DNA from: a virus
IMG/VR virus record: IMGVR_UViG_3300033153_012554
Location: 1-20,152 of that record
Length of the DNA: 20,152 nucleotides
Strand: one strand, 5' to 3'
In this document: positions 3 to 17,024 of the stretch, piece by piece
Numbering within the stretch: position 1 is the stretch's first letter
How the letters are laid out: the number at the start of each line of letters is the position of its first letter
The notes under the pieces: generated by a model
Told to the model about the DNA's origin: nothing
Databases searched by the model: none
Seen by the model: the letters and a program-made list of their open reading frames with translations, nothing else
Made by a program: the position numbers and the translations under genes

Positions 3-785
3 TGTCGCTTTGGCGATATTTCTACCGAGCTGATTCAGATGTTTATGGCCGATCTGGCCCAGCGCCGCCATTTTATGCCCGCGACGATCCATAACTGGCA
101 CGCCTCAATCAGCTCGTTTTGCGAATATCTGATCAACTGCGGCCATTTGACCGTTAATCCGGCCCGACGGGTTAAGTTACCAAAAATAATTACCCCCCCG
201 CCGATATACCTCAACGCCGAGCAGGTGACCGAGACCCTGACCTGGGCCAAATATTATGGTTGCTACTTTGAGGTTCACACCGCGATCATGACCGGGCTGA
301 GGCGGTCGGAGTTGGCGGTCTTGCGTTGGGAGCACCTCGATTTGACACGCAAGATATTGACGGTGGTCAAAGGCAAAGGTGGTAAAACCCGGACGGTGTC
401 GATCGCCGATGAATTAGTCAATGAGCTGCGGTTCCTGACCCAGCCGGCGGGCCTTGTTTGGCCCAACCGGAAAGGAGTTGCCCACGGCCAGAGGCACTGG
501 GATCGCAAGATCGAGGAGGTCAAATCACGGATGCCGATGATTGTCGGCTGGCATACTTTTCGCCACACTTTCGCCTCGATTCTGGCCCAGCGGGGGGTCT
601 CGATATATAAAATCTCCGCCTGGCTGGGGCATTCTAAAGTCTCGACTACGGTGAGCTTTTATGCCAACCTGGCCCCTGAAGAATATGACCCCGACATTAA
701 CGCCCTGAGCTCACCGGCCGTCGGTATTGACCCACCAGCTCCCGAGCTGGCCACTGGTGGGTTTACCGACGGTTGGCAGGATTAG
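3..785 (+). CDS. int: Tyrosine recombinase (phage integrase), N-terminus cut by window edge
   Basis: Site-specific recombinase of the tyrosine recombinase family. The frame is open from base 3 without a convincing start, so the N-terminus lies outside the window; 260 residues are visible. Residue numbers count from the ATG at 39. The end of the SAM-like core-binding domain comes first (about 1-45), then the catalytic domain. The catalytic set is complete: Arg88 in TGLRRSEL, a beta-hairpin Lys in KGKGGKTR (113 or 116), His172 and Arg175 in HTFRHTF, His198 in LGH, and the nucleophile Tyr208 in VSFYANL. It should therefore be active. It faces the late operon, and its 3' end overlaps the last minus-strand gene by 23 bases. 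It probably integrates and excises this prophage, but it could belong to a neighbouring element because the left side is not visible. Confidence 0.95.
   Translation, partial: CRFGDISTELIQMFMADLAQRRHFMPATIHNWHASISSFCEYLINCGHLTVNPARRVKLPKIITPPPIYLNAEQVTETLTWAKYYGCYFEVHTAIMTGLRRSELAVLRWEHLDLTRKILTVVKGKGGKTRTVSIADELVNELRFLTQPAGLVWPNRKGVAHGQRHWDRKIEEVKSRMPMIVGWHTFRHTFASILAQRGVSIYKISAWLGHSKVSTTVSFYANLAPEEYDPDINALSSPAVGIDPPAPELATGGFTDGWQD
731..761. repeat. Inverted repeat at the 3' end of the integrase gene
   Basis: Eight-base arms, CCCACCAG (731-738) and CTGGTGGG (754-761), enclose 15 bases that hold a second small repeat, AGCT..AGCT (737-748). It lies within the last codons of the integrase and just beyond the end of the convergent gene. 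No U-tract follows on either strand, so it is not a canonical terminator. It could be an RNA 3'-end structure or part of a recombination site. Confidence 0.4.
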
Positions 786-8547: not shown

Positions 8548-8571
8548 GATTATAATCTCCTGTTTTTTTTG

Positions 8572-9611: not shown

Positions 9612-9955
9612 CAGCGCAGCTCCAAAGTCAGCATTGCGCTATCCTGACTGATTATTTTAGTAATCCGACGAGCAACCGGGGTCTCTCCGATCCGGCGGGC
9701 TACACTAATTGTATCGCCACCAGTATCGACCTCGGCGGCGGTGATCCCTGTGGTAACATCGTTTTTGACCGTGGCGGTCAGGTCCGGACCGCCGCCATGT
9801 GGGACACCGTCGAGGGGGCCCGGCTGGCGCCGATCGATTACGGCGGTGATCGAGCGGGCCGCCGGGGCCCCGCCGGTGGGGGTATAAGTGACCGATTCGC
9901 CGAACTCGGCTAGCAGGTGATCGGCCGCGGCCGCTCTGGCAGTGGTCAAAGTCAT
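9611..9955 (-). CDS. Head-tail joining protein, gpFII-like
   Basis: A 114-residue small protein upstream of Z. A helix (TTARAAAADHLLAEFG) leads into a beta domain with VTYTP, ITAVIDR and ITKIISQ strands, the pattern of gpFII-like head-tail joining proteins. Its ATG overlaps the stop of the beta-helix gene (ATGA). It would form the connector ring that accepts the tail. Assigned from size, pattern and order. Confidence 0.75.
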   Translation of the reverse strand: MTLTTARAAAADHLLAEFGESVTYTPTGGAPAARSITAVIDRRQPGPLDGVPHGGGPDLTATVKNDVTTGITAAEVDTGGDTISVARRIGETPVARRITKIISQDSAMLTLELR

Positions 9956-11490
9956 CCGGTCAGCCCCCCTGCTATTCCCATGTTCCCCTTAGGCTGGGCA
10001 AAGTTACAACCGACGTTGTTGTGGTATCCTATAAAATTACAATCGCCGCCGCCGAGGCAGGGACTCAGGGCCCCGAGGGCGAAATTACCGCCGGCGGCAT
10101 TGTCAAACATCGGGTCTTTTTGAATATTGTTACTGCCGATCTGGGGGATAGCGGCATCTTTCGTTTTATCGTAATAAGGAATCGTCAACGCCGCCCCGGC
10201 CGCCGTTGAGTAAGCACAATTATAATCACAGTAAGCCAAAGACCCTAGATTCGTATCGTCAATTCTGACGGCATAGTCATCAATGGCAGGCATATCGAAA
10301 ATATTGTTCCAGGCTGCACCAATTGAATTCGCTCCTGAAATATCAAAAGCCATACCACAGCCGTAAAAAGTATTGTTATAAACATTGCAAAGACCGTTGC
10401 CTTTATATCTGACCCCTGCATAATTTGCGTTCAAAAACAGACAATTTTTTATTGTTGCCCCAGCTCCGTCTATATGCACACAACGATCATTGGCGGTATT
10501 TCCCATATCATATATCGAGTTGCTTATGGAAACACCGTTCGATGAGCTGTCAAAATAAGAACCGTAATATTGAGTGTCACCAAAATAACAATCATTCACA
10601 TAGAAGCCATTAAACTTGCCATATACGCCCGCCCCGGTAGCACTGGTATCTTCAAACCGACAATTCGTTACCCCACCGCCGTTTGTCGGGCCGGAAACAC
10701 TTGAACCGTAAAATAAATATCGCGTTCCGGTGATGTTTTTGAAGTGATAATTATGCCAGTGAACATTGTGTTGTTTGTTATTATCGATTAAATCATACGA
10801 ACCCCCGTCGCCGTCAATGACCCCCCAGGCCGCATTTGAATTTCGGAGCGGGTAGCTGTTGTAATCATTAAAGGCATTGATAGCCCCGCCATAATATGTG
10901 CCATCGGGTCCATCCATATCGCCGGGCGTGGTATGAAACGCTTTGATAAATACATGATAATCTTTTGCCACTGTGCCCGATATGTTCACGGCCAGCCCGG
11001 CCGTGAGTATCTCATCTTTGTTGCTCCAGAGATACCGATTAGCATTGTCGGCTTCATCGGCTTTGTCGATAGCGTTCTGTAGGGTATCAAAGGCACCGCC
11101 GACAATACATGATACCGCCACGTCATCGCCGCCGTGGGTCAGGTCCAGGTCCACATAATTGTCACTGACATCGACCGCCAACACTTCATAACGCCCATCG
11201 GTGCCGCCGGAATAATTATAAATATAGGCAATAGTACCGACAACAATCTCGGTATGATCGAATGCGCTAGCCTTGGTGACCCGCACCTTCCCATCGCCCC
11301 GGTCGGTCACGGCCGCCGAGTCATCGTCTATCTTGGTCCACGGCTCCCCGTTGGTGTCCATAAAATCGCTAAGGGAACCAGACGCATCCCAGGCAGCCTC
11401 GGTGCAGCCGCCCCCGGCATCGGCGTCGCCGGCTAAAGTGCCACGGCCGCCAACAAAATGTAAGGTATCTTTAGCAATCAATCCCGCCAT
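9952..11490 (-). CDS. Parallel beta-helix protein within the head region
   Basis: A 512-residue protein. Residues 1-150 have irregular beta structure. From about 230 to 440 there are short repeats of the type N-x-hydrophobic-x-N/D-C-x-F-x-G (for example TIKNCLFLNANYAGV, CNVYNNTFYGCGMAF), typical of right-handed parallel beta-helices of the pectate-lyase type. Near the C-terminus an ALSPCLGGGD segment resembles the cap motif found in many such proteins. No catalytic set was identified. Its place among head and connector genes, rather than in the tail tip, is unusual. It could be a capsid fibre or a host-glycan-binding decoration. The DNA of the helix core (about 10250-10850) is visibly richer in A+T than its flanks, suggesting that part was acquired separately. 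Confidence 0.8.
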   Translation of the reverse strand: MAGLIAKDTLHFVGGRGTLAGDADAGGGCTEAAWDASGSLSDFMDTNGEPWTKIDDDSAAVTDRGDGKVRVTKASAFDHTEIVVGTIAYIYNYSGGTDGRYEVLAVDVSDNYVDLDLTHGGDDVAVSCIVGGAFDTLQNAIDKADEADNANRYLWSNKDEILTAGLAVNISGTVAKDYHVFIKAFHTTPGDMDGPDGTYYGGAINAFNDYNSYPLRNSNAAWGVIDGDGGSYDLIDNNKQHNVHWHNYHFKNITGTRYLFYGSSVSGPTNGGGVTNCRFEDTSATGAGVYGKFNGFYVNDCYFGDTQYYGSYFDSSSNGVSISNSIYDMGNTANDRCVHIDGAGATIKNCLFLNANYAGVRYKGNGLCNVYNNTFYGCGMAFDISGANSIGAAWNNIFDMPAIDDYAVRIDDTNLGSLAYCDYNCAYSTAAGAALTIPYYDKTKDAAIPQIGSNNIQKDPMFDNAAGGNFALGALSPCLGGGDCNFIGYHNNVGCNFAQPKGNMGIAGGLTG

Positions 11491-13371: not shown

Positions 13372-15498
13372 TTATGCAGTATTCTTTTGCATCCCGCGGA
13401 AGTCCAGGGCTTTGACGCCGACGTCTATATAGACCAGGAAGATCACGCCCAGACCATTGGGTGCGGCATTATAACGCTCGACACTCGGGGCCTGTTTGCC
13501 GTTCAGGAAGCTGACCTCGATGGTGTCAACGTCACCCGGCCGCCCGGTGACATACCAGGTAGTAGTTGAGTAACCGGTATAGGTCGTATTACTCAAGCGC
13601 GACTCGATCACCGGCTCGAGCATACCGGCGAAAACATTTTTCGCCGGTGCCCGGGCAGCGCTATTACCTGTACCGGTAGCGACCAGTAGCGGAGCGGTGT
13701 AAAACTCGCGGGCGGTGATCTCCAATTCGGGCGGTACCAATAAATATGCCGGCTCGACATCGATCGGCTGTTCGTCTTTGTCGGTTTGCTTGCGGAAAGC
13801 CTTCAGGGCCGTGGCCAGGCCCGTCTTGGCCAGGGCGGTCGAGGTATTCAGATTGTTATGGTCGGCGTGGAATAATGCCACTGAATCATCGACCATGGCC
13901 CCATTAGCCAGCAAGTGGGTATAGACCAGGTTGGCAACCGTCTGACCGGCCCGATTACCCATAGCTTGTGGGGTCCGGGTAAAGGCGCCCAGGTCATCGT
14001 TAATGATGTCCTGGCGAGTGACGCCGAATTGTTTGGCGTAGGTACCAATTTTGAAGGTCTCATACTCTTCCTGGGCGGTACCGTGTTTGACTGCGCCGCT
14101 ATTGCCCACCAGTTCCAGGGAGCCCGTATCGGTCATACGGACCCGGGTCTGGAGCTTAAAGTCATTGACCGAGCCGACGGAGCACCATTTTCGCCAGGTG
14201 GCACTGGCCAGGTTATAGCCGCGCAGGGCGGCCTTATTGGCCACCGCCCCGAGTAATTGTGGTAAGGTCGAGGACGAAAAGGCCGCCCTGATCACTGCCT
14301 CACGACCGTGGGGAACCTGTAAACCTTCGAGTTGTAGGGATCGGACCGCCAGGTCCGTCATCGACAGATCGCGAAACTTATCGGCGGTCTCGCAACGCTG
14401 CTCATCGTACTGCTCTATCAAAAATTCATCATCACAACCGGCCCGTAAAAGCATGGCACATTCGAGGTCCTCAGCCACGGCCGCCCGGCTGTTAGTGATG
14501 ATTGCCGGGGACCCCAGGGGCGATTTGTTGGCGCGTACTTCCTTGAGAAAGATGCCCTGGGCATCTTCGACGCTGCATTGCTGATCTTCCAGGCATCGCT
14601 GGAGTATTTCACCGGAAATATCGGCACCGGCCAAATCGCGGATTTGTTTTTGTCGATCGATCTCGGCGGCGACGGCGGCCTCGGCGACCTTCTTATCGGC
14701 GGCGATCCGGTCGGCGGCGGTAACGGCGGCGGGTTTTGTTTCGGAGGTTTTATCAACTTTTTCTCCCATCAATTCAAAGTCAGCCGCCAGGGCTGAGCGT
14801 TGGGCTTCGGAGAGGGATTCAGGGTCGATACCACGTTCTTTTAGCCATTTCTCAAACATAATTTTTTTTCTCCAATGTTCGGTAGAGTGGATAATTTTTT
14901 CGGCGTTATTGTCCGTCCGATTTGTCGCCTGGTCATCGGCGGGTATAATCACCGCCGAGTTCTCTATAATTTGGTATTTGGTGGTGATTCGCAGGGGCAT
15001 ATCATCGTCGGCGGTATAAAGAACGCCACGGACGGTCCGGGATTTGCCCGGCTCGATGGTAATTGCCCCGCCCTTTAAGATTCGATAACCGATCGAATTA
15101 GTATTGAGATGCCCCTCTTGGGTGAGGGTCCAGGCACGCTGGCCCTCGGGGGTGTTAGCAAAGATGTTTTTTGCGACTATTTTATCACCTTCGACACGGA
15201 GATCGACAGTCGATCCGATCTGGGCGGCCAGCAAACCGCGGTCATGGGAGTCTAAAAACGGAACCTTGTCGGGGAGCTGGGCGCCGGCGGTTAGGAGTAT
15301 TTCGCGAACCGGCGACCAGGAGCGCATATCGAAGACCTCAACCGGTTGCTCGGTGGCGATCACCGCCTCGACCGATCTCTCTTTTTCGTTTAAGGATTCG
15401 GCCCGATATGAATAATTACGGCAAGTCAGGTCCCGGTGCATCTGACCGCGGGTGTCGATGGTCTTAATTTGGGTAGCTTTTATTTTTGATCTTTTCAT
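13372..15498 (-). CDS. Fused prohead protease and Mu gpT-like major capsid protein
   Basis: A 708-residue fusion. Residues about 20-195 are a prohead protease of the U35/HK97 type: the His of FLDSHDRG (85), the Ser of NTNSIGYR (135) and the closing IIENSAVIIPADDQA motif (about 177-191). Residues 214-325 are charged and helical with Ala/Lys/Glu repeats, like a scaffolding delta domain. From about 335 on comes the capsid, with the Mu gpT-like block FKIGTYAKQFGVTRQDIIND (482-501) and LFHADHNNL (542-550). It would self-assemble and be cut by its own protease. The start ATG 15498 overlaps the portal stop (ATGA) and has AAGGA upstream. Residue 214 is a strong internal start. The fusion depends on an A8 run at 14869-14862; see findings. 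Confidence 0.85.
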   Translation of the reverse strand: MKRSKIKATQIKTIDTRGQMHRDLTCRNYSYRAESLNEKERSVEAVIATEQPVEVFDMRSWSPVREILLTAGAQLPDKVPFLDSHDRGLLAAQIGSTVDLRVEGDKIVAKNIFANTPEGQRAWTLTQEGHLNTNSIGYRILKGGAITIEPGKSRTVRGVLYTADDDMPLRITTKYQIIENSAVIIPADDQATNRTDNNAEKIIHSTEHWRKKIMFEKWLKERGIDPESLSEAQRSALAADFELMGEKVDKTSETKPAAVTAADRIAADKKVAEAAVAAEIDRQKQIRDLAGADISGEILQRCLEDQQCSVEDAQGIFLKEVRANKSPLGSPAIITNSRAAVAEDLECAMLLRAGCDDEFLIEQYDEQRCETADKFRDLSMTDLAVRSLQLEGLQVPHGREAVIRAAFSSSTLPQLLGAVANKAALRGYNLASATWRKWCSVGSVNDFKLQTRVRMTDTGSLELVGNSGAVKHGTAQEEYETFKIGTYAKQFGVTRQDIINDDLGAFTRTPQAMGNRAGQTVANLVYTHLLANGAMVDDSVALFHADHNNLNTSTALAKTGLATALKAFRKQTDKDEQPIDVEPAYLLVPPELEITAREFYTAPLLVATGTGNSAARAPAKNVFAGMLEPVIESRLSNTTYTGYSTTTWYVTGRPGDVDTIEVSFLNGKQAPSVERYNAAPNGLGVIFLVYIDVGVKALDFRGMQKNTA
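14857..14873 (-). promoter_or_regulatory. Internal ribosome site and ATG at the protease-capsid junction
   Basis: GGAG (plus 14873-14870) lies ten bases before an ATG (14859-14857) that is in frame at residue 214 of the fusion. This would give a separate 495-residue scaffold-capsid protein, comparable with Nu3 nested in lambda C. Most of the spacer is an A8 run. Confidence 0.7.
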
Positions 15499-17024
15499 GC
15501 CGCGTTTTCCTTTTTTTTATTACCGCCGGCGGCGGTCTGATCGACCGGGTCCTGATTATTGATCTGGTCCTGATTATCGACCGGGGGGGGCGGCTCGGCC
15601 GTGAGCCCCAGCTCCTCACAGTAGGCCACTTCTTTGGCACGCTGAGCGATCTGTTTTTTCCAGTCTTTGCCCTGCCGGGACCACTCCTCAGCCAGGTTGG
15701 TCGTTAAATTCGCCAGGCGGGTCTTCTGACCATTGGCCTCTTTTTGTGGATCGACGTGCTCGGTGCCCGGCCAGAACCATTGTGTTTTGATTTTCTTGAC
15801 TAAGGCCATCGGTAACAGGCCGCGGTACAAGCGGGCCTCGGTCAGCCAGGCCGCCAGGATCGGCTCACAGACTCGCAGCTCGATCCAGCGTTGCAGGGTC
15901 CGAATCGAACGAAAATATACCTGCCAGTCCAGCCGGCCGCTGGCGTAATTGTAGCCGGCACTGTTGGCGGCGGCCACGTTGTAGGGCATGTTAAGACAGC
16001 GCGCGATCTCGTTAATTATCTCGGCCTTAAACTCCTTGTAAGTTGACGAGGGTTGCTCGGCCTTGAACTGAAAGGTGTCCCAACCGGCGGGCAGGGATAA
16101 TATCGTACCACGCGGGATTTCGATTTCATCCATGCTTTCAATATCGGTTTCAACATTGAGGTCAGGACTGTTGGTTTTCATGACCGCGGCGAGGTCCGCG
16201 GCGGTCTCGGCCGCCTGGACTACCGCCAGGGTGTATCTCCGCAATTTGGCAAACAGCGGCAACGCCGGGGTCAGCCAGGGGACACCGCGATTTTGGCCGG
16301 GTCGATCCTGGCGAAATATATGGATGATCTGATCGGCATCGATTCGGTCGAATTCGCCCAGGACCGCCGCCGACCAGATGTCTTTGCTACCCGGGTGTTT
16401 TTGATTGATATGATAGGCGATCGGCTTGCCCAACTCGTTGACCTCGATCCCGTCGCGGATTTTTTGATTGTTCAAAAATTTCCAGGGGGTGGCCAAGCGA
16501 TCCGGCTCGATCATAAGAAGTCGATAACCAACATTACCACCCTTGGCCTCGCTGTCCGTCTGGCTGCCGATCAGGGCCTCACCCGATTCGCACAGTTGCA
16601 GGATCACCAGGCGGAGCTGGTCGGCCAGGCTGCCGATCCCCAGATAATCGCAGTGCATAGTCCAGTCAGTGAAGCGTTCTTCGACCGTGCGGTTAAATTT
16701 TTCATTATCTGTTAGAATCTGCAAGCGGGGCCCGGGGCCGATTATGTCGTTTGCCAGCGTATCGACAATTCCTTTAGCATAGGTGTTATTGCGAACCTCG
16801 TAACGAGCGCGGTTGCGCAGTTTGCCCAGATCAGCGGTGATCAGGGCGTTGGCATCCGAGTCATCGGCCCTCGACCAATGATTTTCGTTATGACGATCGG
16901 TCTGGGCGGCTGCATAATTGCGGTAATGCCGGCGGGCGGCCAGGCCCTGGTTTTTTGGCTGGGCCGGCAAGGGGTCAGCCGACCCCGGCATGACCAGTAG
17001 TACATTGTTGTCGAGGGTTCCCAT
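15495..17024 (-). CDS. Portal protein, lambda gpB family
   Basis: A 509-residue portal of the lambda type. Seen in order: an Arg-rich N-terminal region with NNTYAKGIVDTLANDIIGPGPR (about 78-99, part quoted), the helical and beta clip-stem region with LMIEPDRL, a DRPGQNRGVPWL motif (about 242-253), and a late SAGYNYASGRLDWQ segment that is characteristic of this family. Twelve subunits would form the DNA entry ring and bind terminase. The C-terminus (about 475-509) is disordered and contains a duplicated Asn-Gln-Asp unit. It starts two bases after the gpW-like stop and is overlapped by the protease-capsid start. Confidence 0.92.
   Translation of the reverse strand: MGTLDNNVLLVMPGSADPLPAQPKNQGLAARRHYRNYAAAQTDRHNENHWSRADDSDANALITADLGKLRNRARYEVRNNTYAKGIVDTLANDIIGPGPRLQILTDNEKFNRTVEERFTDWTMHCDYLGIGSLADQLRLVILQLCESGEALIGSQTDSEAKGGNVGYRLLMIEPDRLATPWKFLNNQKIRDGIEVNELGKPIAYHINQKHPGSKDIWSAAVLGEFDRIDADQIIHIFRQDRPGQNRGVPWLTPALPLFAKLRRYTLAVVQAAETAADLAAVMKTNSPDLNVETDIESMDEIEIPRGTILSLPAGWDTFQFKAEQPSSTYKEFKAEIINEIARCLNMPYNVAAANSAGYNYASGRLDWQVYFRSIRTLQRWIELRVCEPILAAWLTEARLYRGLLPMALVKKIKTQWFWPGTEHVDPQKEANGQKTRLANLTTNLAEEWSRQGKDWKKQIAQRAKEVAYCEELGLTAEPPPPVDNQDQINNQDPVDQTAAGGNKKKENAA
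15548..15583. repeat. 18-bp tandem duplication in the portal 3' end
   Basis: GGTCCTGATTAT recurs at 15548 and 15566 (period 18), coding two related six-residue units (NQDQIN, NQDPVD) in the disordered portal C-terminus. A C8 run (15583-15590) adjoins it. Confidence 0.6.

Follow-up and report, generated by a model that had tools for sequence, protein, structure and literature searches.

In phage lambda the protease gene C contains an internal in-frame start, Nu3, which gives the scaffold, and the capsid protein gpE is encoded by a separate gene. In the Salmonella phage Gifsy-2 a protease, a middle scaffold-like region and the capsid reportedly lie in one gene. For this tripartite capsid gene, PMC3121763 cites Effantin et al. 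2010 (Virology 402:355). HK97 and D3 (gp4-gp5) have an S78-type protease upstream of a capsid protein that carries an N-terminal scaffold domain and has the HK97 fold, protease and capsid being encoded by separate genes (PMC12749128, PMC10275583). The HK97 prohead contains 415 capsid proteins and about 60 proteases, and that of D3 about 90 proteases (PMC12749128). A gene in which protease and capsid are fused would pose a dosage problem, since a single fused product implies a 1:1 ratio of protease to capsid, and an HK97-like capsid takes several capsid subunits for each protease.

We examined a stretch of viral DNA of 20,152 nucleotides (IMG/VR record IMGVR_UViG_3300033153_012554, hereafter the window), which has the same upstream S78-type protease, scaffold-like part and HK97-fold capsid as HK97 and D3, but in one gene, made up as follows:

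13372-15498, minus strand: prohead protease-scaffold-major capsid fusion gene, 708 aa (NF045541, Pfam Peptidase_S78 and Phage_capsid_4, PHROG 4523)
15507-15511, minus strand: AAGGA, approximate SD of the first start, upstream of the ATG at 15496-15498 (reads TAAAAAAAAGGAAAACGCGGC-ATG)
14929-15396, minus strand: protease domain, residues about 35-190 (Pfam S78, alignments, model)
14860-14928, minus strand: linker, residues 191-213 (model confidence low at 195-206)
14488-14859, minus strand: helical scaffold-like part, residues 214-337 (helices at 204-324 in the model)
13375-14487, minus strand: major capsid domain with the HK97 fold, residues 338-708 (Pfam, model, Foldseek)

The protein matches the NCBIfam profile for prohead protease/MCP fusions (NF045541) practically end to end and in one frame, residues 36-707 corresponding to profile positions 1-632 of 634. 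Its score of 436 bits lies under the curated cut-off of 525 bits, and it is thus a relative of this family below formal membership. All 49 sequences of our alignment A2 match the same profile. Both Pfam domains exceed their gathering scores (Peptidase_S78 with 23.1 bits against 21, Phage_capsid_4 with 164 bits against 27), the scaffold and capsid part matches NCBIfam NF045540, and the protein also matches PHROG 4523. In the protease domain H85, S135 and E179 are conserved; within alignment A2, S135 is invariant and H85 is conserved in at least 90% of the sequences. An AlphaFold model built from 49 relatives (mean pLDDT 86.6, pTM 0.55) has a protease rich in beta structure (about 35-190), a loose linker of low confidence (195-206), helices (204-324), a further loose stretch (327-335) and the capsid, in this order. 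When the whole model was used as a Foldseek query the top match was HK97 Head I (E 5.4e-10), the matches being dominated by the capsid domain, which from about residue 345 resembles the capsids of HK97, D3 and GTA. At its left end the window cuts a tyrosine recombinase gene (3-785, plus strand; Pfam Phage_integrase, 74.7 bits), which suggests that the window is probably from a temperate phage or prophage.

The gene contains a run of eight adenines (A8) shortly after the protease domain, and a reading of the sequence without database searches (the sequence-only reading) had left two options, a real polyprotein or two genes joined by a homopolymer sequencing error, with the fusion depending on the length of the run. 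A single-base change in the run would indeed break the frame: one extra base (A9) leads to KKNYV followed by a stop and one base fewer (A7) to KKLCLRNG and a stop, just as had been predicted. Furthermore, separate genes do exist in some phages, such as the Faecalibacterium phage FP_Epona, whose capsid gene begins after an AGGAGG near the point where the internal start of the fusions lies (see below), its product aligning to the profile from position 196 onward. However, scans of viral contigs and genomes recovered 175 related loci, and 154 of them (viral contigs and prophages), in addition to the window, have protease and capsid in a single uninterrupted frame. The nearest relatives, at 44-51% identity, are uninterrupted fusions and none has the A8 run, nor do some 150 more distant loci that carry the same fusion. 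The fused frame therefore does not depend on a miscounted homopolymer, and the existence of an NCBIfam model for protease/capsid fusions likewise argues against an artificial joining of two genes, to which we give practically no credence. The polyprotein reading is supported.

Two loci that appeared to have split genes were rejected. One (L088) is really a ClpP-type fusion broken by a frame change. The other (L098, 2505-3647) is a lone capsid ORF without a protease or scaffold part, which has its own AGGAG and an unrelated upstream neighbour, and no protease ORF lies upstream of it in its 5.5 kb contig. The Planctomycetes bacterium syqfu chromosome carries five related fusion genes (L120-L124), and therefore these are probably five prophages.

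Around codon 214 the coding (minus) strand of the window reads CAT TGG AGA AAA AAA ATT ATG TTT GAG, so that all three elements named in the sequence-only reading (A8 run, upstream GGAG and in-frame ATG at residue 214) are present:

14870-14873, minus strand: GGAG, SD core of the putative internal start (sequence and comparison with relatives)
14862-14869, minus strand: A8 run separating the SD from the ATG, with A AAA AAA in frame
14857-14859, minus strand: internal in-frame ATG, codon 214 (M214; sequence and comparison with relatives)
14852-14854, minus strand: TGA at which translation from the protease frame would stop following a -1 slip or on an A9 transcript (sequence)

Of the internal ATGs in this ORF, M214 alone is preceded by a convincing SD. 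The site is of moderate strength (SD energy -6.4), its spacing of 10 nt between GGAG and ATG falls at the long end of the family range, and its accessibility is lower than that of the first start (unpaired fraction 0.47 vs 0.68).

Conservation of this site was assessed in the junction zone, from the last conserved protease residue (D188) to the conserved E..R motif (E279), by requiring an in-frame ATG with a GGAG, GAGG or AGGA core 4-12 nt upstream. The loci were reduced to 64 lineages with less than 60% identity to each other, although some kinship remains after this cut. Both large scans had used patterns from the capsid part, so that the set is not selected for the junction, while an initial small scan included one pattern that overlapped it. 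Such an in-frame SD and ATG, as would be expected of a nested start at the protease end, is found at the junction in 147 of the 155 loci and 61 of the 64 lineages, within a protease/scaffold linker that is otherwise variable; the putative internal start is thus conserved across very diverged relatives. Equal-sized zones shifted downstream contain the combination in only 2-14 of 64 lineages, and 57% of the in-frame ATGs in the junction are preceded by an SD core vs 9% elsewhere. By frame, the junction has it in 61 lineages in frame, 14 at +1 and one at +2 (n=64). For the Rhodobacter capsulatus phage RcFrancesLouise, a fusion phage available in culture, the internal start is predicted at M214 as well.

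One may also consider that the full-length polyprotein is the sole product, with a protease on every subunit that is cut off later, and that the SD and ATG result incidentally from a charged linker (KE/GE) and a structural methionine. The linker does account for part of the signal: after synonymous shuffling, which keeps the protein, the motif still occurs in a mean of 38 of 64 lineages, because residues beside the methionine (such as KE and GE) favour it. However, the maximum in 300 such shuffles was 48, below the 61 observed, and for the strict AGGAG/GGAGG motif the shuffles averaged 18.6 lineages and never exceeded 26, compared with 41 observed. When the order of the codons in the linker was shuffled, 18 of 64 lineages had the motif on average and 30 at most. 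Moreover, the codon phase of the SD differs between lineages, with all three phases represented (40, 15 and 6 lineages), and the SD is hence encoded by different residues, which implies that it is kept as a nucleotide sequence and not merely as protein.

The exceptions are few. Three of the 64 lineages have no SD core, and two of these (L065 and L082) have GGG-type variants. The third (L154) is a prophage from a Chitinophagaceae MAG; its junction contains an in-frame ATG with nothing SD-like before it, and an SD is absent before all other listed genes of this prophage too. Bacteroidota largely do without SD sequences, and an internal start without one fits this habit; a lineage that does not use SDs being the one that lacks it also speaks against the polyprotein as sole product, an explanation we regard as improbable. 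In several annotated phages without the core (Shewanella 1/44, Vibrio 1.050, PBb001 and Pben1) a weaker purine-rich stretch precedes the linker ATG. Most fusions with a ClpP-like protease have an internal SD and ATG at the corresponding place, and by inspection mEp213, mEp460 and F10 have them at homologous positions.

We therefore favour, with considerable though not full confidence, a nested gene that is translated from two starts in the same frame and yields both a polyprotein and a scaffold-capsid subunit. Initiation at codon 1 would produce the full protease-scaffold-capsid polyprotein, whereas initiation at codon 214, from the GGAG and ATG in the linker, would produce a scaffold-capsid subunit of 495 aa, the counterpart of the HK97 capsid precursor. 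The sequence-only reading had proposed that capsid could be made alone from the internal start; the comparative evidence strongly supports the possibility of a protease-free capsid part, but in the model M214 falls within the helix that opens the scaffold-like part, and the product would therefore comprise scaffold as well as capsid, as the HK97 precursor does, instead of bare capsid. Since two starts in one gene allow an unequal ratio, the conserved internal start would solve the dosage problem of the fusion, and for each protease it probably allows many capsid subunits to be made. We infer that both products are made, with the scaffold-capsid product presumably in excess, so that the procapsid would contain many capsid subunits and few proteases. 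These few would be retained inside the shell via their own capsid part, and the protease would then remove itself and the scaffold by cutting. By analogy, the window gene may combine a tripartite organisation like that of Gifsy-2 with internal initiation of the lambda C/Nu3 kind. As in lambda, an internal in-frame start after the protease is predicted to let one gene supply an assembly protein that lacks the protease, but here this product would include the capsid; the tripartite layout is that of Gifsy-2, whose protease is ClpP-like whereas that of the window is of the S78 type.

Public annotation of ten fusion phages gives the long product only. If the internal start is used, database entries for the fusion family omit what is probably the most abundant product, and the start predicts an N-terminus that can be sought in capsid precursors. 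A literature search for an internal start in protease-capsid fusions returned nothing relevant; the Gifsy-2 paper lay outside this search, and an earlier report may exist.

The sequence-only reading had also raised possible slippage that releases free protease. On the A8 run, slippage by RNA polymerase, or by the ribosome (-1) on A AAA AAA, would terminate the protease frame within a few codons, with M214 still starting the capsid. The heptamer does lie in frame, as in dnaX-type slippage, and there are nearby stops in both other frames, one of which overlaps the internal start region. On the other hand, the two further marks of dnaX-type slippage, a stimulatory structure downstream and a conserved slippery site, are absent: no stable RNA structure was found downstream of the run (fold z 0.38 vs shuffles), and among the 64 lineages only that of the window has at least seven adenines in the 20 nt that precede the internal ATG. 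Runs of seven or more adenines occur in six other junctions, placed elsewhere than before the internal ATG, and the window sequence itself has several comparable A8 or A9 runs on the coding strand. Slippage that frees protease is thus unsupported, and we consider it very unlikely; most simply, the run is incidental, just an A-rich stretch that separates SD from ATG in this phage. There is also only a slim chance that a more far-reaching proposal applies in its entirety, namely that the fusion gene of many diverse phages hides an unannotated scaffold-capsid protein which is the true main capsid subunit, that the strength of the ribosome site sets the protease:capsid ratio, and that the A8 spacer of the window in addition frees some protease.

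Two of the further coding-strand A8 runs lie just upstream of start codons, at 15511-15518 (the fusion gene itself) and 8563-8570 (a tail-tube gene), both on the minus strand and adjoining SDs, and A-rich leaders seem habitual for this phage. Elsewhere in the window, a gene at 9952-11490 (minus strand) encodes a protein of 512 aa that matches a right-handed beta-helix and lies amid head-tail connector genes, an odd site for a spike-like protein.
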